Positions 51,938 through 63,889 of a stretch of 64,000 nucleotides of DNA are shown piece by piece; position 1 is the stretch's first letter; the number at the start of each line of letters is the position of its first letter. Source of the stretch: a virus; the IMG/VR virus record IMGVR_UViG_3300042882_001046, positions 1-64,000 of that record; one strand, given 5' to 3'. A model generated the notes under the pieces. It worked only from the letters and a program-made list of their open reading frames with translations, did not search any database and was not told the DNA's origin. A program made the position numbers and the translations under genes.

Positions 51938-52690
51938 TTAGTTGTTTAATCCTTGGAATCCTCCTAAAGATATTGCGTTTAGTTGGACAATAACCTCATC
52001 ACCATCTTCACTTGTCATAACTGAATATGGTACTGTAGAACCAGATGGTGCAGTACCTCCACTAAATGACCCTAACATACCAATAGTGTATTGATATTGT
52101 TGGTTTACTTCAATAACAAATCCAATAGTTACACTTGGAGTTGGTGTAGATGTTGGTGTAGATGCTGGAGTTCCAGTTGGTGTTGGTGTTACTCCCGCAG
52201 TTCCTGTTGGAGACGCGGTAATACTTGGTGTTGGTGTTTTAGTTGCCGTGTTTGTTGGCGTTTGAGTTTGAGTATTTGTTACACTTGGTGTTGGTGTATT
52301 TGTTGTGGTTGCCGTGTTTGTTGGCGTTTGAGTGTTAGTTGCGGTATTTGTTGGCGTTTGAGTATTAGTTGGTGTAGGTGTTGGTGTTTTAGTTGCCGTA
52401 TTAGTTGGTGTTTGTGTTTGAGTTGTAGTAGGTGTTGGTGTTGAAGTGTTAGACGCTGTTGGGGTTGGAGTTACGTCTCCTAAACATTCAATACAAGTAT
52501 TCCATGGTCCATTAAATATTGTTGCCGTAAAGGCCAATGGAGTATCAAATCCAGGTGCAATTGTATAACAACCGTTGGCACCAGGAATTACAAGGTCATA
52601 AATTTTTCCCTCTATTAAGTCTGTTTCTATCTTTATGTAATAGTTCGTAGACGAACTACACGAAGAAGCTATATAATAATTAAGCGCCAT
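51938..52690 (-). CDS. Small stalk protein with Thr-Pro repeats
   Basis: 250 residues. Residues 1-72 form a small Cys-containing globular domain ([29 protein letters not shown]). Residues ~74-185 are Thr-Pro-Asn-rich repeats ([17 protein letters not shown]), the same stalk type as in the giant fibre-like gene at 1-3037. The C-terminal ~60 residues are a beta-strand domain ([23 protein letters not shown]). I infer a virion surface stalk or head fibre. It is the first gene after a TATTTATA box, upstream of the head operon. Possible acceptor for O-glycans. Confidence 0.75.
52130..52470 (-). repeat. Thr-Pro coding repeat, third copy
   Basis: Plus-strand text of GTTGGCGTTTGAGT / GTTGGTGTTTTAGTTGCC units, clearly related to the tracts at 100-480 and 720-1080. 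Several units repeat nearly perfectly, for example GTTGCCGTGTTTGTTGGCGT at two places. Confidence 0.85.
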
Positions 52691-53740: not shown

Positions 53741-54041
53741 ATAATTTCCAATCTTTGAGCGGCGTTAATTCATTTATTTTTTGAAGAAGTGGCATTACAT
53801 AATCCTGTACTTCTTTTTTAGTTGCATCGAATCCGTAATCTTTAACCGATGCAATGACTTTATTTAGTTTGTTTTGGAATCTTTCTTGTAAGTTCATCAT
53901 TTTCATCGTGTAAGTTGGAGGACTTTCTAAATCTGATTCACTAAATCCTAATTCTTGTAAATGTTGTCTAAGCTCCAAATATATGTCTAAAAGCTCTCTT
54001 AGTATAGACGCAGTTGCCAAAAATTTCTCAAACGGTTTCAT
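53700..54041 (-). CDS. Unknown helical protein
   Basis: 113 residues from the ATG at 54041, chosen because a TATTTATT box ends 4 nt upstream; a longer frame from 54104 would run through the box. Mostly helix (ASILRELLDIYLELRQHLQELGF, RFQNKLNKVIASVKDYGFDATKKEVQDYV). No motif. It is divergent from the hydroxylase-like gene at 54053, with only 11 nt between the two ATGs, and overlaps the KTSC gene by 41 nt. Confidence 0.6.
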   Translation of the reverse strand: MKPFEKFLATASILRELLDIYLELRQHLQELGFSESDLESPPTYTMKMMNLQERFQNKLNKVIASVKDYGFDATKKEVQDYVMPLLQKINELTPLKDWKLYDSKRDDSGNEDY

Positions 54042-54045
54042 ATTT

Positions 54046-54053
54046 AATAAATA
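54046..54053 (-). promoter_or_regulatory. Late-type promoter box TATTTATT
   Basis: The plus strand reads AATAAATA, 4 nt from the minus ATG at 54041. It touches the ATG of the divergent gene at 54053, which has no own box this close. Confidence 0.5.
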
Positions 54054-54628
54054 TGGACTACACCGATACTTTTCTATTACACGGTAAAATTGATGTTGAC
54101 CCAATCATAAAAATCATTACTGATAATAATTTGGATTGGGATGAATACACCGAAAGACAAAATAAATGGGGTACAGAACATCTATACACCAAAACAATAC
54201 CAATAATTTTTGACAAGTCTTTTAATTTTAATCATTTAAAAATTATTCCAACCGAAAATTATCCATTGTTTATTGACGAAATTTCAAAAATAGAAGAACA
54301 AATTAAATCAAACACAGGTGAAAGCGGAAAAATTATGAGAGCCCTATTGGTTAAATTAACGGCAGGTAAATTAATTAGACCTCACGTTGATACCGTAGGG
54401 TTTAGTTTAGTTGTTTGTAGAAGAATCCATATTCCAATTCAAACTAATGATGAATGTTTCTTTACTGTCGGTGATGATAAAAGAAATTTAAAGATTGGTG
54501 AAATGTGGGAAATCAACAACGACAAAAAAATGCACTCGGTTGAAAATTTTGGAAGTACTGACAGAATACATTTGATTGTAGATTGGGTTGAGGAATCATT
54601 ATTTGAAAAATATGATAGACAAAACTAA
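54053..54628 (+). CDS. Aspartyl/asparaginyl beta-hydroxylase-like 2OG oxygenase
   Basis: 191 residues from ATG at 54053; a frame from 54014 adds 13 residues but runs through the divergent gene. The iron/2OG pattern is visible: RPHVDTVGFSLVVCRRIHIPI (H-x-D and basic residue), then GEMWEINNDKKMHSVENFG with the second His, and RIHLIVDW at the end. This fits the Asp/Asn hydroxylase family (2-oxoglutarate, Fe(II), O2). The target could be a protein residue or glycan. It overlaps the sulfotransferase gene by 17 nt. Confidence 0.82.
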   Translation: MDYTDTFLLHGKIDVDPIIKIITDNNLDWDEYTERQNKWGTEHLYTKTIPIIFDKSFNFNHLKIIPTENYPLFIDEISKIEEQIKSNTGESGKIMRALLVKLTAGKLIRPHVDTVGFSLVVCRRIHIPIQTNDECFFTVGDDKRNLKIGEMWEINNDKKMHSVENFGSTDRIHLIVDWVEESLFEKYDRQN

Positions 54629-55277
54629 AAAACTTATTGTTTTGATGCCGCCCAAAACCGCATCAAATTCTATACGAGTCTTATTGGAGCAACATGGTTA
54701 CTTTTTTTCTAAAGACTCTAAAAAAACAAATTACCCCCAAATACATTTAAGGTTAAGTGAAATTGTGGATTTCTACAATATCAATAATTTAGACGAATAT
54801 AGAATAATACAAATTACCAGAAACCCATATCATCGGTACGTCTCGTCTTTTTACTTTCAAAAAAAAATTATCCCTCAAAACTTCTCTGTTAAATTTAAAG
54901 ATTATACTTTAGAACAATTTTCAAACCATTTATTGGAATCAAAAAAAACAAATAATTTTATTGATAATTTTTATGGTGATTCGTCATTTGTTAATCACAC
55001 AATTAATAATGGTATTAGTTGGGGTGGGACCAGATTTTATGATAAACAATTTGATTGGAATGATTTGGGGATGGACGTAAAATATTTTAAGTTAGAAAAC
55101 ATAATTGATGATATAAGTGAATTAGAAAATTTTTTAAATCTACCTATTAAAACTTTACCATTAATAAATTCACAAGGATTGAATGTTGATTATCTATCTT
55201 TAATAACACCAAAAATTCAAGATATTATTATTGAATTATTTGGAGAAGATTTTGATAAACTTAACTACTCAAAATAA
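54612..55277 (+). CDS. Sulfotransferase family protein
   Basis: 221 residues from the ATG at 54612 (a start at 54588 is also possible). The PAPS 5'-phosphosulfate loop is IVLMPPKTASNSIRVLL (~8-24) and the 3'-phosphate region is ITRNPYHRYVSSFYFQ (~67-82), both typical of carbohydrate sulfotransferases. It would move sulfate from PAPS to a sugar hydroxyl or Tyr. It is coupled to the hydroxylase-like gene and ends at a terminator. It may decorate glycans built by the 5830-27320 operon; this is inference. Confidence 0.83.
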   Translation: MIDKTKKLIVLMPPKTASNSIRVLLEQHGYFFSKDSKKTNYPQIHLRLSEIVDFYNINNLDEYRIIQITRNPYHRYVSSFYFQKKIIPQNFSVKFKDYTLEQFSNHLLESKKTNNFIDNFYGDSSFVNHTINNGISWGGTRFYDKQFDWNDLGMDVKYFKLENIIDDISELENFLNLPIKTLPLINSQGLNVDYLSLITPKIQDIIIELFGEDFDKLNYSK

Positions 55278-55306: not shown

Positions 55307-55687
55307 TTACTTTTTCAAGTTTTTAATTTGGTCTCTAAGCTCAATTGATTTTTCAAACTCTTGGTTTTCAATTGACTTCTTTAATTCCAATTCAAGTTTC
55401 TCAATAGATTTTTGATTTTTTTCAAAGCCTTTGATTTGGTCTCTAAGTTTAACTGCCGATTCAAAATCTTCGTTCTCAATTGCTCTTTCAAGTTGATACT
55501 TTAAAGATTCTAATCCTCCTGTTTCTTTAGATGAGTCTCCTCCTCTATAATAAGTTGTTACTTTTATTGTACCATCATCAGATACTCTACTTTGCGATTT
55601 CCATTCCCCTTGGGTTAAATCAAAATGAGAGAACATTTCATCAAACGCTCTAAAGATGTCATTGTAGTTTTTTCTGTTTCCAAACAT
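55307..55687 (-). CDS. Double-UVR-motif protein (McsA-like C-terminal part)
   Basis: 126 residues. The first 55 residues are a small domain (NDIFRAFDEMFSHFDLTQGEW, VTTYYRGG). Two UVR helix-pairs follow, LERAIENEDFESAVKLRDQI (~82-101) and LKKSIENQEFEKSIELRDQI (~113-122 on). UVR motifs occur in UvrB/UvrC, in ClpC and in its adaptor McsA. McsA's zinc fingers are missing here. Because the divergent neighbour encodes a ClpC-like ATPase that has its own UVR-like helix, an adaptor or regulator role is a reasonable inference. DNA-repair binding to UvrB is the alternative. Confidence 0.75.
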   Translation of the reverse strand: MFGNRKNYNDIFRAFDEMFSHFDLTQGEWKSQSRVSDDGTIKVTTYYRGGDSSKETGGLESLKYQLERAIENEDFESAVKLRDQIKGFEKNQKSIEKLELELKKSIENQEFEKSIELRDQIKNLKK

Positions 55688-55736
55688 AATTTTATTTTTT
55701 TAATTCAGATTTATTAATTACCTTTGTGGTATTCAA

Positions 55737-55765
55737 ATAATATACCAACTGAATCTTAATGTCAA
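55737..55765 (-). promoter_or_regulatory. Possible promoter of the UVR gene
   Basis: On the minus strand TTGACA (55760-55765) is followed after 17 nt by TATTAT (55737-55742), a sigma-70-like pair, and the same stretch contains ATTATTTG, which is close to the Bacteroidetes -7 box. It lies ~50 nt before the ATG at 55687. Weak evidence. Confidence 0.35.
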
Positions 55766-55767
55766 GA

Positions 55768-55795
55768 TGTCAGGTAAAATAATTATAACCTGACA
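55768..55795. promoter_or_regulatory. Inverted repeat, candidate operator
   Basis: TGTCAGGT (55768-55775) and ACCTGACA (55788-55795) form a perfect 8-bp inverted repeat with a 12-nt AT-rich spacer, located between the divergent UVR and clp promoters. Further TGTCA copies lie at 55760 and 55799. A dimeric repressor site is the likely reading; no T-run follows, so it is not a terminator. Confidence 0.5.
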
Positions 55796-55808
55796 ATTTG
55801 TCAAAAGA

Positions 55809-55840
55809 TTTGGAGAAGTCCAATATTTGATATTACTTTG
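55809..55840 (+). promoter_or_regulatory. Bacteroidetes-type promoter of the clp-like gene
   Basis: TTTG at 55809-55812, spacer of 20, then TTACTTTG at 55833-55840 (one mismatch to TAnnTTTG). The ATG at 55858 follows after 17 nt, giving a short leader. No Shine-Dalgarno sequence is seen. Confidence 0.6.
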
Positions 55841-55857
55841 TAAAAAATTAGAAACAT

Positions 55858-57873
55858 ATGAACGACTTAATGGACGATGACGACAAAATGATGAGTAAGA
55901 AACAGAAATCGACTGGCGACAGTACGACTCCTGTGTTAGACAACTTCAGTCGAGATTTGAATAAACTTGCTGAGGAAGGTAAATTGGACCCTGTCATTGG
56001 ACGTGACAGAGAGATTTTGAGAATAGCTCAAATTTTATCTCGTAGAAAAAAGAACAACCCAATCATCGTTGGTGAACCTGGTTGTGGTAAGACCGCAATT
56101 GTGGAAGGTTTGGCGATGAAGATTGTTAGTGGTGAATGTCCACGTAATCTTTTGGATAAACGTTTAGTCAATCTTGACTTAACTTCTGTTGTTGCTGGTA
56201 CAAAATACCGTGGACAATTTGAAGAGAGAATGAAGGTAATTATCGAAGAACTTCAAGCAAATCCTAACATCATTGTATTCATTGATGAAATCCATACTCT
56301 TGTAGGTTCTGGTAATTCTGCAGGTTCTATGGATGGTTCAAACATTTTTAAACCCGCACTTGCTCGTGGTGAAGTCCAAGTAATTGGTGCCACCACATTG
56401 GATGAGTTCCGTAAGAATATTGAAAAAGACGGAGCGTTAGAACGTAGGTTTCAAAAAGTTGTGGTTGAACCTTCAACTGTTGTTGAGACAATTCAAATCT
56501 TGAAAAACGTTCGCGACAAATATGAGTCTTATCATAAAGTCACGTATTCTGACGAGGTTATTGAAACTTGTGTTAAGTTGGCAGACCGTTATATCACGGA
56601 CCGTGAGTTCCCTGATAAAGCATTTGACATCTTAGATGAAGTTGGAGCTCGTATGCAAACAGAACTTAAAGTTCCTGAAGTTGTTGAAGAGTTAAAACGT
56701 AAAGCGGCTGAAATCAAACAACAAAAAATTGATGTTGTTAAGAAACAAAACTACGAACAAGCTGCTCAGTTAAGAGACAAAGAGAAAAAGGTATTGGATA
56801 AATTGGAGGATGAAAAACGTAAGTTTGAAGAACAGATGTCAAAAGACAAACAAAAAGTTACATTAGAGGATGTGTACGATGTTGTTTCAAACATGACCAA
56901 AATTCCTGTAAACAAAATGTCTGTTGATGATACCAAAGCTTTGTTGAACTTGGATAAACACATTGTTGGTACCGTAATCGGTCAGGACGCCGCTGTTATT
57001 AAAGTGGCTAAATCTATCAAAAGAAATAGATTGGGTATTAAAGACCCGAACCGTCCGATTGGTTCATTTGTGTTCCTTGGTTCAACAGGTGTTGGTAAAA
57101 CTCACTTGGCAAAACAATTGGCTAAGGAAATGTTTGGTAGCGAAGATTCATTAATTCGTGTGGATATGTCCGAGTACCAAGAGAAACACACCGTATCTAA
57201 ATTGGTTGGAGCCCCTCCAGGTTATGTTGGATACGAAGAAGGTGGATTGTTAACTGAAAAAGTTAAAAACAAACCATATTCAGTGATTTTATTTGATGAG
57301 GTTGAAAAAGCTCACAAAGATGTATTCACAGTATTACTACAAATCTTGGACGATGGTCACGTTACAGATAGTTTAGGTAGAAAGATTAACTTCAAAAATA
57401 CCTTAATTATCTTAACCTCAAACCTTGGGGTTAAAAAATTACAGGACTTTGGAACGGGTATTGGATTCGGTACAAACTCTTACAGTAATGAAGAGGCAAA
57501 AAAAGACATTTTGATGAAAGAGATGAAGAACTTCTTCTCTCCTGAGTTTATCAACCGTATTGACGATACTATTGTTTTTAACTCACTTTCTCAAGAAGAT
57601 ATCAAAAAGATTACGGATATCGAACTTAAAAAATTGATGAAACGTCTTGAAGATATGAAGTACAAGATTAATTATGACGATAGTTTAGTTGAGTACATTG
57701 CAAAAATTGGATATGATGAAAGTTATGGGGCAAGACCTATGAAAAGAGCAATCCAAGACAAAGTGGAGGACTTACTATCCGAAGAAGTTCTAACCGACAA
57801 AATTGTGGAAGGTAAATCTTACGTGATTAAGGTTGAGGACGAAACGGTAAAGGTCGTTAAAAAAGGACGATAA
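55858..57873 (+). CDS. ClpC/ClpA-like double AAA+ unfoldase without N-domain
   Basis: 671 residues. First AAA+: Walker A VGEPGCGKTAIVE, Walker B IIVFIDEIHTLVG, GALERRFQKV. A linker with UVR-like helix (KKQNYEQAAQLRDKEKKVLDKL) follows. Second AAA+: FLGSTGVGKTHLAKQ, VILFDEVEKAHKDVF, and SPEFINRIDDTIVF. An IGF tripeptide (FGTGIGFGTN) is placed where ClpC/ClpA have the ClpP-docking loop. The usual Clp N-terminal domain is missing; only ~35 residues precede the first AAA+. It should unfold proteins for host ClpP. Bacterial ClpC is about 820 residues. A strong terminator follows. Confidence 0.93.
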   Translation: MNDLMDDDDKMMSKKQKSTGDSTTPVLDNFSRDLNKLAEEGKLDPVIGRDREILRIAQILSRRKKNNPIIVGEPGCGKTAIVEGLAMKIVSGECPRNLLDKRLVNLDLTSVVAGTKYRGQFEERMKVIIEELQANPNIIVFIDEIHTLVGSGNSAGSMDGSNIFKPALARGEVQVIGATTLDEFRKNIEKDGALERRFQKVVVEPSTVVETIQILKNVRDKYESYHKVTYSDEVIETCVKLADRYITDREFPDKAFDILDEVGARMQTELKVPEVVEELKRKAAEIKQQKIDVVKKQNYEQAAQLRDKEKKVLDKLEDEKRKFEEQMSKDKQKVTLEDVYDVVSNMTKIPVNKMSVDDTKALLNLDKHIVGTVIGQDAAVIKVAKSIKRNRLGIKDPNRPIGSFVFLGSTGVGKTHLAKQLAKEMFGSEDSLIRVDMSEYQEKHTVSKLVGAPPGYVGYEEGGLLTEKVKNKPYSVILFDEVEKAHKDVFTVLLQILDDGHVTDSLGRKINFKNTLIILTSNLGVKKLQDFGTGIGFGTNSYSNEEAKKDILMKEMKNFFSPEFINRIDDTIVFNSLSQEDIKKITDIELKKLMKRLEDMKYKINYDDSLVEYIAKIGYDESYGARPMKRAIQDKVEDLLSEEVLTDKIVEGKSYVIKVEDETVKVVKKGR

Positions 57874-57874
57874 T

Positions 57875-57903
57875 AAAAAGGGGGATTATTCCCCCTTTTT
57901 TTG
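57875..57903 (+). terminator. Rho-independent terminator after the clp-like gene
   Basis: Stem AAAAGGGGG / CCCCCTTTTT with ATTATT loop followed by T-run. The next promoter box begins right at its end. Confidence 0.92.
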
Positions 57904-57911
57904 TATTTATA
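57904..57911 (+). promoter_or_regulatory. Late-type promoter box TATTTATA for the metallopeptidase gene
   Basis: TATTTATA ends 3 nt before the ATG at 57915 and follows the T-run of the previous terminator directly. Leaderless arrangement. Confidence 0.65.
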
Positions 57912-57914
57912 ATC

Positions 57915-58523
57915 ATGAGTAATTTTTCAAAACTATTAGACCATTTTAGACAAAGTTTCCCAGACGAATTAAAGTCCAAGGTTGACGTTATTGAAAAATT
58001 TGTTGTTAACTATATTAAAAAACACAACATTACAGTTAAGTTTTTAAATTCGTGTGGTACTGGTTTTAGTGGGGTTAGAACAAGAGACCAAGTAATTATT
58101 TGCTCACCAGCAAACATGAGAACTATCGGTGATTTTTTATACACCATATTTCATGAAATTCGGCACGAACAACAAGTTAGGGATATAAAAATGGATAACC
58201 CACTTACTGATTACGATTTAGAAGATTTTGAAAAATTATATCAGCAATATTGGGAAATGGAGTTGGATGCCGACCAGTTTGCAAAAAATATGATTGCTAA
58301 ATTAGTTATTAAATTAAACATACCCATTTGGTTTGCAAAAGGTCAATTCGGACTATCTTATTATATTGAACAATATCCTTCTATGTCAAAATCAGTTGAG
58401 ATGTCTTTGAGGTCAATTGTGTCAACAATTCAACACCTAAAAAAATCGGGGGCCGAGTATGAAGACATACAAGACCACCCGATGGTTAAAAGGTTTATAG
58501 ATAAGTTAGAAAATTTTATCTAA
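57915..58523 (+). CDS. HExxH zinc metallopeptidase-like protein
   Basis: 202 residues. IFHEIRHEQQ (~78-87) gives the HExxH zinc site, and WEMELDADQFAKN (~115-127) provides the third Glu plus a nearby Asp, a gluzincin-like layout similar to small M48/SprT-like or ImmA-like peptidases. No signal peptide, so it acts in the cytoplasm. Substrate unknown. Neighbours are a ClpC-like unfoldase upstream and a convergent M20-type peptidase directly downstream (ends touch). Confidence 0.75.
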   Translation: MSNFSKLLDHFRQSFPDELKSKVDVIEKFVVNYIKKHNITVKFLNSCGTGFSGVRTRDQVIICSPANMRTIGDFLYTIFHEIRHEQQVRDIKMDNPLTDYDLEDFEKLYQQYWEMELDADQFAKNMIAKLVIKLNIPIWFAKGQFGLSYYIEQYPSMSKSVEMSLRSIVSTIQHLKKSGAEYEDIQDHPMVKRFIDKLENFI

Positions 58524-59369
58524 TTAGAATAACAAATCTCTATTGTTATAACTGTATTGTTTTGCTTCTTTAAAGTGTAGGGTGTGTCCCAAATCCTGAA
58601 TCATTTTTCTACCCATTTCAATCCCATTGAACACGTCATCAATAACGACATATTCATTTGGAGTGTGATAATCATAATACCCAATCGAGAAGTTAATACA
58701 AGAGAAGTCAAATTTACCTCTTAAGGCATAAACGTCAGTATATGGGTGAACCATGTATCTCATATCTTCATTAACCATTCCTTCGGTTAGGACTTTATCA
58801 ATTTTTTGGAAGAAGTCTGAATCTCTATCAAACAAAACTTGACCAAAACATTTTTCAGTAATCATCCAGTTTTCAGGGGCATCAAATTGGATTCCGTATC
58901 CAACATTTTCAAAAAACTTTGGGTCGGCAACTCTTGAGCCATGACATCCTGTTTCTTCAGATACAAAAAATGCTGCTTTTAGATATGGTAATTCTTTTAA
59001 TAATGTTAAACAAGCAAATACACCACATTTGTCATCACCACCAATACCAGTTGGTTTCCCCTCATTGTTATAGGCTTTGAGGGATGGTTTTAACACGTCT
59101 TGTGCGTTTGGTAACATCATTTCTTTGATGTTAATTGTATCAATATTGTGAACGGTGTCTGTGTGAGAAATTACACACGGGAAATAAAAATCTTCAGGTA
59201 GTTCTGAATTTTCTTGTTTTGTTGCATAGACATTCATTTTGTCATCAACATAATGGTCTATATTGTTTTCAGTCAACCAATTAACCAAGAATTCCACCAT
59301 TTGGTGTTCTTGATAGGTTTTTGTGGGTACACTTAAAACTTCTTTTAGAAGTGCTATTTTTTCTGTCAT
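58524..59369 (-). CDS. M20/M28-type zinc exopeptidase (tripeptidase-like)
   Basis: 281 residues. Di-zinc pattern: VISHTDTV (His, Asp), GIGGDDKCGVFA (bridging Asp), FVSEETGCHGS (catalytic Glu-Glu), GIQFDAP (Asp) and YHTPNEY (His). This matches aminopeptidases of the M20/M28/M42 group; it is shorter than PepT (about 400) and lacks most of the lid domain. It would trim small peptides in the cytoplasm. It has a host-type promoter with leaderless spacing, so early or constitutive expression is likely. Confidence 0.82.
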   Translation of the reverse strand: MTEKIALLKEVLSVPTKTYQEHQMVEFLVNWLTENNIDHYVDDKMNVYATKQENSELPEDFYFPCVISHTDTVHNIDTINIKEMMLPNAQDVLKPSLKAYNNEGKPTGIGGDDKCGVFACLTLLKELPYLKAAFFVSEETGCHGSRVADPKFFENVGYGIQFDAPENWMITEKCFGQVLFDRDSDFFQKIDKVLTEGMVNEDMRYMVHPYTDVYALRGKFDFSCINFSIGYYDYHTPNEYVVIDDVFNGIEMGRKMIQDLGHTLHFKEAKQYSYNNRDLLF

Positions 59370-59373
59370 AGCA

Positions 59374-59405
59374 CAAAGATAAGAATAATTTATATTTCAT
59401 CCAAA
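59374..59405 (-). promoter_or_regulatory. Bacteroidetes-type promoter, leaderless arrangement
   Basis: On the minus strand TTTG (59402-59405), a 20-nt spacer and TATCTTTG (59374-59381) precede the ATG at 59369 with exactly 4 nt between. This is the third promoter in the window with this spacing. Confidence 0.75.
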
Positions 59406-60436
59406 TTAAATAATGTTGGTTGATATAATAAATTATAAAAATTATCCTCAGACAATTTAACTTTTTTCTGTTGGAATCCTTTTTGTAGTATTACCACTAC
59501 TTTCATACCAGGGTATTCAAATCCTTCGATTTTGAATCTGGTTTCTTTTTTTGGGTCTTTAGGTAGATTATAAAATTTGTCTTGTTCAAATTTTTTAGTA
59601 ATTCTATCAGTCATTTCAGTGAAGTCGTGAACAGTAACTCCGTCTTCTCCTGGACCGTCTTCCAATTTTTCTAAAATATCATCTAATTTTCTCGAAGTAT
59701 AATTATTGAAACTTTCTGTGTCAAAATTATCGTCGTTCATATATTGATACGTGTCATCGGCCCAACCTCCTGGAGATGTTACGTTTCGTATTATATCATC
59801 AATCAAATCTTCAAGAGATAAGTGTATTTTATTTTCTTTTAAATACAACATTATCAGGTTAGCAACCGTGGTTCTGAATCCGTCACCATAAGATTCAAAC
59901 CCAAGTTGGTCCAAGAATTCATCAAATTCTTTATTAACCGAGTCTCTAGCACTTGTCCGAGCCTCACTGTTTCTTTCTGATTGATAATCTGAAATTATAT
60001 CTTCCGTTTCACGTCTAAAGTTAGTTAATAGTTTTTCTGAAAGTTGGTTTCTAAATTGTTCACTGTCAAAATCTACTTTAATTGGTAGAATTATCTTTGA
60101 AATTTGTGCGAGTTTTTCTTTATTATCATCATTCAAATTATAATATAGTCCCCAACCATTCTCAAAATCTTCTTTAGCCGAATGCCAATCCATAAATTCG
60201 TAATCACTATATGGAGAATTGATTACACGATAGAACCAACTGTCATCATCACTAAGACCCATCGCCTCTAAAAACTTTTCCTCGTTTTTAAACTCAACGT
60301 TAATCTTACTTTGACCTCTGTTCTGTCTATCTTCCCTTACTTCAGTGAATAACTCGTCCGCGTTTTCAAGTTCGTAAGCATTTATCTTACCTCTAACGTA
60401 GTTCCTTAAAGCAATGAATGTGTCTAATACCGCCAT
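59390..60436 (-). CDS. Unknown acidic phage protein
   Basis: 348 residues, acidic, with FIALRNYVRGKINAYELENADELF at the start and Asp/Glu/Asn-rich helices through the middle. A C-terminal beta-like stretch (KKETRFKIEGFEYPGMKVVVILQKG) precedes a helical end. No motif or family recognised. The promoter of the downstream peptidase gene lies within its 3' end. Start ATG at 60436, 5 nt after a TATTTATA box. Role unknown. Confidence 0.65.
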   Translation of the reverse strand: MAVLDTFIALRNYVRGKINAYELENADELFTEVREDRQNRGQSKINVEFKNEEKFLEAMGLSDDDSWFYRVINSPYSDYEFMDWHSAKEDFENGWGLYYNLNDDNKEKLAQISKIILPIKVDFDSEQFRNQLSEKLLTNFRRETEDIISDYQSERNSEARTSARDSVNKEFDEFLDQLGFESYGDGFRTTVANLIMLYLKENKIHLSLEDLIDDIIRNVTSPGGWADDTYQYMNDDNFDTESFNNYTSRKLDDILEKLEDGPGEDGVTVHDFTEMTDRITKKFEQDKFYNLPKDPKKETRFKIEGFEYPGMKVVVILQKGFQQKKVKLSEDNFYNLLYQPTLFNLDEI

Positions 60437-60441
60437 ATGAA

Positions 60442-60449
60442 TATAAATA
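60442..60449 (-). promoter_or_regulatory. Late-type promoter box TATTTATA
   Basis: The plus strand reads TATAAATA, 5 nt from the minus ATG at 60436, back to back with the tmRNA promoter region. Confidence 0.58.
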
Positions 60450-60459
60450 CAACTTCCAC

Positions 60460-60490
60460 TTGGATTTAAACATATTTATACTTACCTTTG
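60460..60490 (+). promoter_or_regulatory. Promoter region of the tmRNA, two overlapping types
   Basis: TTG at 60460-60462, 20-nt spacer, TACCTTTG at 60483-60490 (Bacteroidetes type). A TATTTATA box lies at 60473-60480 between the two elements. Transcription would start about 10-15 nt before the mature 5' end at 60510. Both an early and a late input seem possible. Confidence 0.6.
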
Positions 60491-60509
60491 TAATGTTCTT
60501 TGAAAATAT

Positions 60510-60932
60510 GGGGATGAAATGGTATCGATTGGCATTGTTGGGGATAAGTGGCACGTAGTCAGAATTCATCTATGACTTTAATCTATGGTGAAGACAATTA
60601 GCTGGCAATACTTTTGCTAAGATGGCGACTTTAGGTTTAACTAGAGAAGCTTCTGTTGTAGCTGCCTAAGAGGTAGTCACAACCGTTACTCCAACCAAGT
60701 TGGTGTAACCTCGGGTCGATTAGGACGTTAACCTAGGAACAGAAGTCCAATATACGGGTCACAGGTCAGAGCTCGTTTAAAATAATTCTGAGACCAGGTT
60801 GTTTGTAAGTTTGGTTCCCACATACATCAAACTTAATATTTCGGAACGTTGAGAAACAACGTTGTACTAAACGTGTAGTCATTTATTGTCAAAGTGAGCA
60901 AGACGCGGGTTCGACTCCCGCCATCTCCACCA
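60510..60932 (+). ncRNA. ssrA: Transfer-messenger RNA (tmRNA) with long tag
   Basis: The 5' GGGGATG pairs with 3' CATCTCC, giving the G3-U70 wobble of alanine-type tmRNA; the T arm is GCGGG-TTCGACT-CCCGC (60905-60921) and ACCA is encoded at 60929-60932. A tag reading frame from GGC at 60604 runs to TAA at 60667: 21 codons starting GNTFAK and ending ASVVAA. A hairpin with CCAAC/GTTGG follows. tmRNA with SmpB rescues stalled ribosomes and adds a degradation tag. The tag is about twice the usual length. A cysteine-cluster gene begins 12 nt downstream. Confidence 0.95.
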
Positions 60933-61411: not shown

Positions 61412-63889
61412 ATGAAGTATTTTCTTTTATTTTTATTGCTACTTCCAACATTAGCAATTGGACAAATAACCGTAAACGGTTTAACAAAATCAAAATCCGA
61501 AAACATATATTTTTCACATATAAGTTTTAAACACTCAGACGGTGCCACATATTCAACAATTTCAAATGAAAACGCGGAATATAAATTAAACCTTAAATCT
61601 GGTTTATATACAATAAAAGCGTCATACATTGGATATAAAGAATTCACAAAAGAATTAAATGTAACGTCCGACTTAACCTTTGATATAATATTTGAAGAAA
61701 CTGAAACTCAGTTGTCAGAAGTTGTTGTAAGGGCGGCTCCACAAAAAGTAACCGAAGCATCAATTGTTAGGTCAATACGAAATAATAATGTCGTATCCGA
61801 TGGACTATCAATTGAATTTATTAAGAAAACTCCTGACAGAAACGTTGGTGACGCACTTAAAAGAGTTGGTGGGGTAACCATCCAAAACGATAAATTTGTA
61901 TTGGTAAGAGGTTTGGCAGACCGTTATAATTCTGCATTATTAAATAAAACCCCACTACCGTCAACTGAACCAGATAAAAGAGCGTTTTCTTTTGACATAA
62001 TCCCAACTTCTTTAATTGACAACATTATTGTTGCTAAATCATCGTCAGCAAATTTGCCTGGTGATTGGAGTGGGGGATTAGTTCAAATAACAACAAAAGA
62101 AGTTTCTGATAAATTTTTTAATCTGTCATTGGGAAGTGGTTGGGGTTCGGTTTCAACCTTTAGAGATTTTAAGTTAGTTCAAGCTACCGATTTCCCTTCC
62201 ACATTCCCTTCAACTTATAGATACCGTATATCATCAAACGGAGATAAAAGGGCGTATACTAAATTAATTGGTAATCCATCAGTTGAACAGACTAAATCAA
62301 CCCCTAATTTAAATGGAGGATTATCATTTGGTCACGCAAATGGAAAATGGAATTCATTATTTAGTTCTACAATTAGAAATTCATATACACTAAACAATAT
62401 TGAAAGAAAAGATTATCAATCATCAACAGAGTTAGCTTATGACTATAAAGATGTTTTATTTACAAAAAGATTTTCAACAAACAGTTTGTTTAATTTAACT
62501 TACTTGGGTGAAAATAGATACAGTTGGAAAACTTTAGTAAACTACCAAATTGAAGATTCATATCTAAACCGTAATGGCGATAATTTTGATAACGTTCAGA
62601 ATGTTTTAACAACGTCTTCGAATCATGTTAACAACGTTGTAATTAGTTCTCAATTTGACGGTAAAATTAAAACATTAAATTTTAATTTAGGATACAATTA
62701 TACGTTTAGAGAACAACCAGATTATAGGATTAATCCAATCACAAAATCATTAGGTGTTAACGAACCTTACGCAACTGCGTGGAGAGACACATATCGTTTT
62801 TGGAGTGTAATGGATGAAAACTCATTTAACGGTAACATAAATAAAGAACTCAATAATATTAAAATTGGTGGTGGGTACATTAAAAGGTTTAGAGGTTTTA
62901 ACGCTAGAATATTTCGTTATCTATCAACAGACATGATGGATGAAATAACAAACAACACCGACAGATATACTGCCGATTTTGATTTGGGGTCTCTTTACTC
63001 GATGTATGAAAACGAATTTGGTAAATGGAAAATAAATGGTGGAATAAGAGGTGAATATAATTTATTTAATGTTCAAACCGCAGATTTTAGTGGTACGGAA
63101 GTGAATGTTAACAGAAAATATTTAGACCTTTTACCTTCGTTAAATCTCTCATACAACGAAGAAAAAACAAAGTATAGATTCTCAGTAAGTAAAACATTGG
63201 CAAGACCTGAATTCAGAGAAGTTGCTAATTTTGCTTATTATGATTTTGTAAGAAATGCTCAAATATTGGGAAATTCAAAGTTAGAAAAATCTGACATATA
63301 TAATTTAGACCTTAAATACGAATGGTACCCAAAGACAGGTGAAAACATTTCGGTTTCTTTATTTGGTAAAAATTTCATTAAACCAATTGAACAAATTGTT
63401 GCAGACGGCTCAGTTCCTTCAAATCTTCTTTTAACTTACACAAACCCTAATTCAGCAATCTTATACGGTATTGAATTTGAAGTTCGTAAAAAGATAAGTG
63501 ATTGGTTTGATGTTTATACAAATGCTTCGGTAATGAATTCAGAAGTAGAAGTTAATGGTATCAAAAGACAATTACAGGGTCAATCAAACTATGTTTTAAA
63601 CGGAGGAGTAAACATACATAAAAAGAAAAACACCCTTAATTTAACTTATAATAGAGTTGGTGATAGAATATCATCTGTAGGGTTTCAGGGGTATCCTGAT
63701 ATATTCGAAAATAGTAGAGATGTATTAGACATTACATTCTTACATAAACTTTCAAAAGGAGAAATAAAATTGGCAATAGGTGATGTATTTGCTCAACCAT
63801 CAATTTATTACCAAAAGGTACAAAACCGAAATCTAATAAAAATAAACAATGAGCAAACAATTTCATTAACATTAAATCTAACATTATGA
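61412..63889 (+). CDS. TonB-dependent outer-membrane receptor
   Basis: 825 residues. Signal peptide KYFLLFLLLLPTLAIGQ; residues ~20-95 form a CarboxypepD_reg-like beta domain (YKLNLKSGLYTIKASYIGYKEF); the plug domain spans ~105-230 with TPDRNVGDALKRVGGV, FVLVRGLADRYNSALL and GGLVQITTKE; the rest is a beta-barrel with Tyr/Asn-rich strands, ending TISLTLNLTL. Such receptors import glycans, siderophores or peptides in Bacteroidetes. Length and blocks are complete, so it looks functional. No TATTTAT or TAnnTTTG promoter precedes it. The ATG of a lipoprotein gene overlaps its stop. Confidence 0.93.
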   Translation: MKYFLLFLLLLPTLAIGQITVNGLTKSKSENIYFSHISFKHSDGATYSTISNENAEYKLNLKSGLYTIKASYIGYKEFTKELNVTSDLTFDIIFEETETQLSEVVVRAAPQKVTEASIVRSIRNNNVVSDGLSIEFIKKTPDRNVGDALKRVGGVTIQNDKFVLVRGLADRYNSALLNKTPLPSTEPDKRAFSFDIIPTSLIDNIIVAKSSSANLPGDWSGGLVQITTKEVSDKFFNLSLGSGWGSVSTFRDFKLVQATDFPSTFPSTYRYRISSNGDKRAYTKLIGNPSVEQTKSTPNLNGGLSFGHANGKWNSLFSSTIRNSYTLNNIERKDYQSSTELAYDYKDVLFTKRFSTNSLFNLTYLGENRYSWKTLVNYQIEDSYLNRNGDNFDNVQNVLTTSSNHVNNVVISSQFDGKIKTLNFNLGYNYTFREQPDYRINPITKSLGVNEPYATAWRDTYRFWSVMDENSFNGNINKELNNIKIGGGYIKRFRGFNARIFRYLSTDMMDEITNNTDRYTADFDLGSLYSMYENEFGKWKINGGIRGEYNLFNVQTADFSGTEVNVNRKYLDLLPSLNLSYNEEKTKYRFSVSKTLARPEFREVANFAYYDFVRNAQILGNSKLEKSDIYNLDLKYEWYPKTGENISVSLFGKNFIKPIEQIVADGSVPSNLLLTYTNPNSAILYGIEFEVRKKISDWFDVYTNASVMNSEVEVNGIKRQLQGQSNYVLNGGVNIHKKKNTLNLTYNRVGDRISSVGFQGYPDIFENSRDVLDITFLHKLSKGEIKLAIGDVFAQPSIYYQKVQNRNLIKINNEQTISLTLNLTL

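Follow-up and report, generated by a model that had tools for sequence, protein, structure and literature searches.

A phage locus joining an N-domain-less ClpC, a predicted PepT-like exopeptidase, and a tmRNA with a private tag: a candidate ribosome-rescue and protein-disposal module

Do neighbouring phage genes for a UVR-motif protein, a ClpC-like unfoldase, peptidases, and a transfer-messenger RNA (tmRNA) act together in protein turnover? The question is raised by positions 55307 to 60932 of a 64,000-nucleotide stretch of virus DNA (the window), i.e., bases 1-64000 of the 118,268-base virus record IMGVR_UViG_3300042882_001046, a T4-like phage contig. An earlier note, made from the letters of the window without database searches, had listed here a double-UVR protein, a ClpC-like ATPase, an HExxH metallopeptidase, an M20/M28-type exopeptidase, and a tmRNA with its own tag, and all five features were confirmed in place by Pfam, PDB, Rfam, ARAGORN, and motif conservation. 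The explanation we favour, and judge by a modest degree probable, is that the locus is a phage ribosome-rescue (trans-translation) and ClpCP protein-disposal module with an exchangeable ClpC partner. The features on which this reading draws are the following:

55307-55687, minus strand: double-UVR protein of 126 amino acids (aa), in the slot divergent from ClpC (Pfam PF02151, E=1.3e-15)
55791-55803, no strand: palindrome TGACAATTTGTCA, 13 bp, between the UVR and ClpC genes, a probable operator (the sole TGACAnnnTGTCA match in the 118-kb contig)
55858-57873, plus strand: ClpC-type AAA+ unfoldase of 671 aa, lacking the N-domain (PDB ClpC, E=3e-221 over D1-M-D2)
56752-56778, plus strand: UVR-like motif YEQAAQLRD in the ClpC middle domain (M)
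57457-57471, plus strand: GIGFG, the ClpP-docking IGF loop of ClpC
58524-59369, minus strand: predicted M20 (PepT-like) exopeptidase of 281 aa (Pfam E=3.5e-6; PHROG)
60510-60932, plus strand: one-piece tmRNA with encoded CCA and a G3-U70 alanine identity pair (Rfam RF00023)
60604-60669, plus strand: tag reading frame GNTFAKMATLGLTREASVVAA, stop included (ARAGORN)
Contig 86174-86854, outside the window: open reading frame (ORF) of a phage ClpP (PDB ClpP match, E=3e-49)

The core of the locus stays together in related phages. Loci of relatives entered the set if their ClpC was at least about 68% similar or if they matched the UVR protein; the ClpC query found at least 596 viral loci, 80 of which were kept, and the UVR protein query found 67. 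Linkage was read from the 50 loci with at least 7.5 kb of sequence downstream of ClpC, near-copies removed, and tmRNAs in relatives were detected by an nhmmer model trained on tmRNAs from the window phage's group. Downstream of ClpC, 50/50 loci have both the M20 gene and the tmRNA, 44 have the gene for a conserved 348-aa protein, and 22 have the HExxH gene. Contigs retrieved solely through the tag agree: wherever they extend far enough upstream, all of them have ClpC, M20, and the 348-aa gene there. Independent scattering of the genes did not occur. Of the five features in the earlier note, ClpC, M20, and the tmRNA stay together; the HExxH gene is optional, and the UVR gene alternates with one for a small heat-shock protein, Hsp20.

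The best PDB matches of the phage ATPase are bacterial ClpC proteins (6em8, E=3e-221), and they cover D1, the middle domain, and D2 only, with the alignment beginning at residue 146 of bacterial ClpC. Both AAA+ modules have intact Walker A/B sets and pore loops, and the short UVR-like middle domain expected of a ClpC unfoldase is present. The protein measures 664-691 aa in all complete relatives, and an [IV]GF loop (LGF in one case) was found in every relative whose ClpC loop was read. An N-terminal Clp_N domain is found neither in the phage ClpC, which starts at D1, nor across 22 large records of relatives (mostly partial, all possibly incomplete); we call the protein N-less ClpC-like for this reason, and the ClpC-like ATPase of the earlier note stands as a ClpC over D1-M-D2 that lacks the N-domain. 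In ClpC and ClpA, the N-domain is the binding place of MecA, McsB, and ClpS. A separate Clp_N protein or a ClpS was looked for as the missing adaptor, and none was found. N-less ClpC proteins with 57-58% identity also occur in two huge phages (L197 and L198; LR756502 and LR745206; 634-642 kb), whose stand-alone UVR proteins are encoded elsewhere in those genomes.

The earlier note had assigned the ATPase to host ClpP, an assumption that is not needed, because the phage contig encodes a ClpP of its own with intact Ser-His-Asp triad motifs (GMAASMG, MLHQ, RDLWLD). Such a ClpP is present in 19/22 of the large records, which makes dependence on the host's ClpP less likely; the partner of the phage ClpC is most likely the phage's own enzyme. 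Shortly before the ClpP gene, at contig 82261-85522, are two adjacent carbamoyltransferase-like genes of about 530-555 aa, a pair with a possible role in DNA-base or cell-surface modification. The tmRNA's protein partner SmpB is encoded less regularly. Three contigs (L020/L252, L084, and L089) have its gene next to the tmRNA, and it is found in 2/22 large records overall; in one 309-kb record it lies at G003:C1:23555-23968, remote from the tmRNA.

The window tmRNA scores 98.6 bits against Rfam RF00023 (cut-off 47) over the full model length, including the tRNA-like domain, and the alanine-acceptor pair G3/U70 is present in 29/29 tmRNAs examined. Tags in the group are 21-22 residues long. Across 23 distinct 21-residue tag frames, G1, G11, L12, and A21 are invariant, and the ratio of nonsynonymous to synonymous polymorphism (pN/pS) is about 0.48, for which reason we regard the tag as conserved at the peptide level. 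An ALAA ending is usual in bacterial tmRNA tags, but it is not universal. Mycoplasma, which lacks ClpXP and ClpAP, is the reported exception to it (PMC3985003). We counted about 67 distinct tags of the GNTFAKMATLGLTREASVVAA type (69 strings were parsed, a few of them evident misparses or frame-start variants), and 0 end in LAA. A search seeded with the tag sequence matched 59 viral contigs. Two degenerate patterns of the tag family gave no match in the genomes of 84,980 bacterial and archaeal species, and a bacterial origin of the tag was set aside on this result.

The UVR protein scores 57 bits against PF02151 (gathering score 21.5) in two stretches, i.e., it has two UVR motifs, and 35 homologues were aligned. 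Among PDB sequences it comes closest to McsA (E=0.0094), although it falls far below the NCBIfam McsA cut-off (46 versus 210 bits), with the match confined to the UVR part. The low-confidence structure model (predicted local distance difference test, pLDDT, 65) has a short N-terminal helix and a beta hairpin before the two UVR motifs, and it gave no convincing fold match. The protein had no match among 50,697 phage records. In relatives without the UVR gene, the divergent slot, about 0.5-0.65 kb ahead of ClpC, is often occupied by a small heat-shock gene of the same size; four examples have the alpha-crystallin domain PF00011 with E values of about 1e-12 to 1e-14. The two occupants exclude one another: beside ClpC, the 22 large records have a stand-alone double-UVR gene in 17 cases, Hsp20 in 4, neither in 1, and both in 0. 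On a quick ClpC tree of 91 non-redundant relatives and the window ClpC, which has several weak branches and may differ from the phage tree, the slot states (55 UVR, 19 Hsp20, 18 empty) require at least 12 changes.

The palindrome follows the occupancy of the slot. The region upstream of ClpC contains it in 49/61 loci with UVR, in 10/19 with Hsp20, and in 0/18 with an empty slot, which amounts to 59/98 ClpC upstream regions (0.05 expected), or 59/80 of those with a filled slot. Because of the UVR/Hsp20 exchange and the slot-dependent palindrome, the link between slot gene and ClpC, for which the earlier note had only the UVR protein, is strengthened and at the same time widened, with UVR now one of two occupants. 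The simplest reading is that UVR or Hsp20 is an interchangeable partner of the phage ClpC and co-regulated with it. By analogy, the UVR protein may pair with the UVR-like middle domain of ClpC; plastid ClpC1, which traps UVR proteins and has in CLPF an adaptor with such a domain (PMC8889267), supports this pairing.

The remaining features of the locus concern the optional member, the 348-aa gene, and signals for expression:

57915-58523, plus strand: putative HExxH metallopeptidase, optional member (HEIRH motif)
59374-59404, minus strand: host-type promoter TTG-N-TAnnTTTG just upstream of the M20 gene (motif match)
59390-60436, minus strand: conserved protein of 348 aa between M20 and the tmRNA (44/50 loci by tblastn)
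60460-60490, plus strand: host-type promoter TTG-N20-TACCTTTG of the tmRNA (motif match)
60473-60480, minus strand: TATAAATA, T4-late-type promoter motif facing the 348-aa gene (motif match)

The active-site motifs of the M20 protein (HxD, bridging Asp, catalytic Glu) are intact in nearly all homologues, with HTD in 92/92, GGDDK in 89/92, and SEE in 89/92. Its sequence places it with M20, not M28, of the two families named before, and predicts a PepT-like exopeptidase that would hydrolyse peptides. In the HExxH protein, the motif is shared by 37/37 homologues; a family could not be assigned with confidence, the Pfam matches (DUF6782 and DUF3920) being weak and sub-threshold. The 348-aa protein, a candidate sixth component, evolves fast (24-70% identity among relatives); its structure model is confident (pLDDT 90.6), and it has no Pfam family and no Foldseek match in PDB or BFVD.

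The element TAnnTTTG, which we take from its consensus to be the Bacteroidota-type promoter element, was found upstream of the tmRNA in 27/31 regions (3.0 expected) and upstream of M20 in 71/88 (about 6 expected). It was not seen as a pattern before the KTSC, nucleotidyltransferase, HExxH, or terminase genes. Its occurrences before ClpC were set aside, as they are partly motifs within the slot-gene region, where the palindrome is the stronger signal. The 348-aa gene has TATAAATA upstream in 22/71 regions (2.2 expected), a late-type motif that the upstream regions of the tmRNA and M20 lack. This distribution suggests that the tmRNA and M20 are probably read early by the host polymerase and the 348-aa gene late. 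Expectations for these motifs come from shuffles, which leave the relatedness of the sequences in place, so the counts are not probabilities. The likely host is a member of the Bacteroidota, given that the closest portal proteins include those of Flavobacterium phage immuto (38% identity) and Rhodothermus phage RM378.

The contig also has PHROG matches to large terminase, portal, and major head proteins, and 23 tRNA genes at about 72-81 kb. Beyond the tmRNA, at 61412-63889 (plus strand), the phage encodes an 825-aa TonB-dependent-receptor/outer-membrane barrel protein; a TonB-type receptor gene follows in 9 of the 50 linkage loci, and among relatives it occurs in either orientation or is absent. 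Between the KTSC and UVR genes, at 54014-55277 (plus strand), is an aspartyl/asparaginyl hydroxylase and sulfotransferase pair that a minority of relatives share. A long stretch of glycosyltransferase-like and sugar-nucleotide-enzyme-like genes occupies 5830-27320 (plus strand), and two proteins with Pro/Thr-rich tandem repeats, possibly fibre stalks, are encoded at 51938-52690 (minus strand) and at contig 116954-118267. Finally, L021 12025-12663 and the contig ORFs at 75262, 87639, and 107911 have a similar short amphipathic start (e.g., MK.L...IKEE) reminiscent of T4 capsid-targeting sequences, for which a crude pattern recovered no clear family.

As a disposal module, the locus would work as follows. 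The alanine-charged tmRNA would enter stalled ribosomes with SmpB, usually the host's and sometimes the phage's, and append its private tag of 21-22 residues to the stalled products. The N-less ClpC, presumably reading the tag, would bind and unfold these clients and pass them to the phage's own ClpP for degradation, assisted by the UVR or Hsp20 partner, and the M20 exopeptidase would trim the resulting peptides for reuse. A more far-reaching version, which we put forward only tentatively, is an orthogonal viral degradation pathway with its own tmRNA degron and its own ClpCP instead of the host's ClpXP, in which the exchange of the UVR or small heat-shock partner under a shared operator would regulate or retarget the machine.

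Several points weigh against a disposal module. Genes across ClpC are equally constant (terminase 72/73, KTSC 73/73, nucleotidyltransferase 73/73), and with neighbouring head genes so conserved, order alone is no proof of a functional link and could reflect vertical inheritance. The ClpP gene is about 28 kb away from ClpC, a phage SmpB was not seen in 20/22 large records (mostly partial), and the slot gene is absent in 18/91 non-redundant ClpC loci. The N-less ClpC genes of huge phages L197 and L198 have a glycosyltransferase neighbourhood in place of these neighbours, and the binding and degradation steps are predicted from sequence. The synteny that reaches the structural genes, together with N-less ClpC occurring elsewhere without these neighbours, could mean that there is no functional module and that the locus is a conserved genome block of unrelated housekeeping genes. 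We think this quite improbable, as passive synteny would not be expected to produce repeated UVR/Hsp20 exchange, mutual exclusion, and a slot-dependent palindrome, and some relatives encode SmpB next to the tmRNA. The idea that the tmRNA is a host ssrA gene at the point where a prophage integrated, prompted by ssrA genes being common attachment sites, was rejected outright: the tmRNA is located mid-contig and is followed by tRNAs and further genes of the phage, it has the same place in 50/50 relatives, and its tag is absent from the bacterial and archaeal genomes searched.

Two further explanations were considered. The slot gene and ClpC might be a chaperone pair for head building or the protection of virion proteins, with the tmRNA and peptidase as independent neighbours kept vertically; the terminase, portal, and major head genes just beyond, within the same conserved order, fit this, as does the suggestion that Hsp20 aids capsid maturation in cyanophages (cited in PMC7674155). 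We consider such a pair conceivable but unlikely, since the tmRNA and M20 remain with ClpC while cargo genes turn over, these two have host-type promoters without the late-type motif of the 348-aa gene, the IGF loop is kept, and a ClpP is encoded. The same host-type promoters, which suggest early expression, would suit a module acting on the host, in which ClpC would work with its partner and ClpP to clear host or defence proteins early in infection, and the tmRNA would serve chiefly to release ribosomes stalled on degraded host mRNA. SPO1 Gp53, an adaptor-like phage protein, reprograms host ClpCP (PMC6873191), and jumbo-phage ClpP and ClpS have been proposed to target host proteins (PMC7824862). 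However, adaptors that dock on the N-domain are of no use to an N-less ClpC, and the sequence names no host target; a host-directed role is therefore rather doubtful in our view.

If the disposal module is real, it joins phage tmRNAs and phage Clp proteins, which for years have been recorded apart from each other and with no evident purpose, and it makes testable the notion that a virus carries out quality control independently of its host. The slot swap suggests that UVR and small heat-shock proteins are interchangeable beside ClpC, which bears on ClpC loading generally, and the private tag, unlike any in sequenced bacteria, could serve as a degron tool. In the open-access papers searched, we found no description of the linked arrangement, the slot exchange, or the tag family.

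Like ClpC of the bacterial ClpC/ClpP systems (Bacillus, Staphylococcus), the phage ClpC has a D1-M-D2 architecture, a UVR-like middle domain, and an [IVL]GF loop; it differs in lacking the N-domain and in having its partner gene in a divergent slot. The phage UVR protein shares UVR motifs with McsA and plant CLPF/EXE, and plastid UVR proteins associate with ClpC (PMC8889267), but the zinc-finger region of McsA was not seen in it. Among jumbo phages, Atu_ph07 encodes Clp ATPases with ClpP and ClpS (PMC6102473), and AP-J-162 has six Clp ORFs, Hsp20, and a tmRNA (PMC11242549); the sections of these two reports at hand describe no linked ClpC-M20-tmRNA locus or UVR/Hsp20 slot. Jumbo phages with Hsp20 have been described as well (PMC7674155). 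Phage-encoded tmRNAs are known from Bxz1, phage G, Melnitz, and huge phages (PMC4131195, PMC9004378), and huge phages also encode SmpB (PMC7162821); in contrast to those tmRNAs, the ones in the window's group have a private tag of 21-22 residues with a non-LAA end and are linked to a ClpC gene. SPO1 Gp53 is likewise a phage protein working through ClpC (PMC6873191), but it acts on the ClpC of the host, whereas the window phage encodes ClpC itself. The components are already known singly in jumbo phages.
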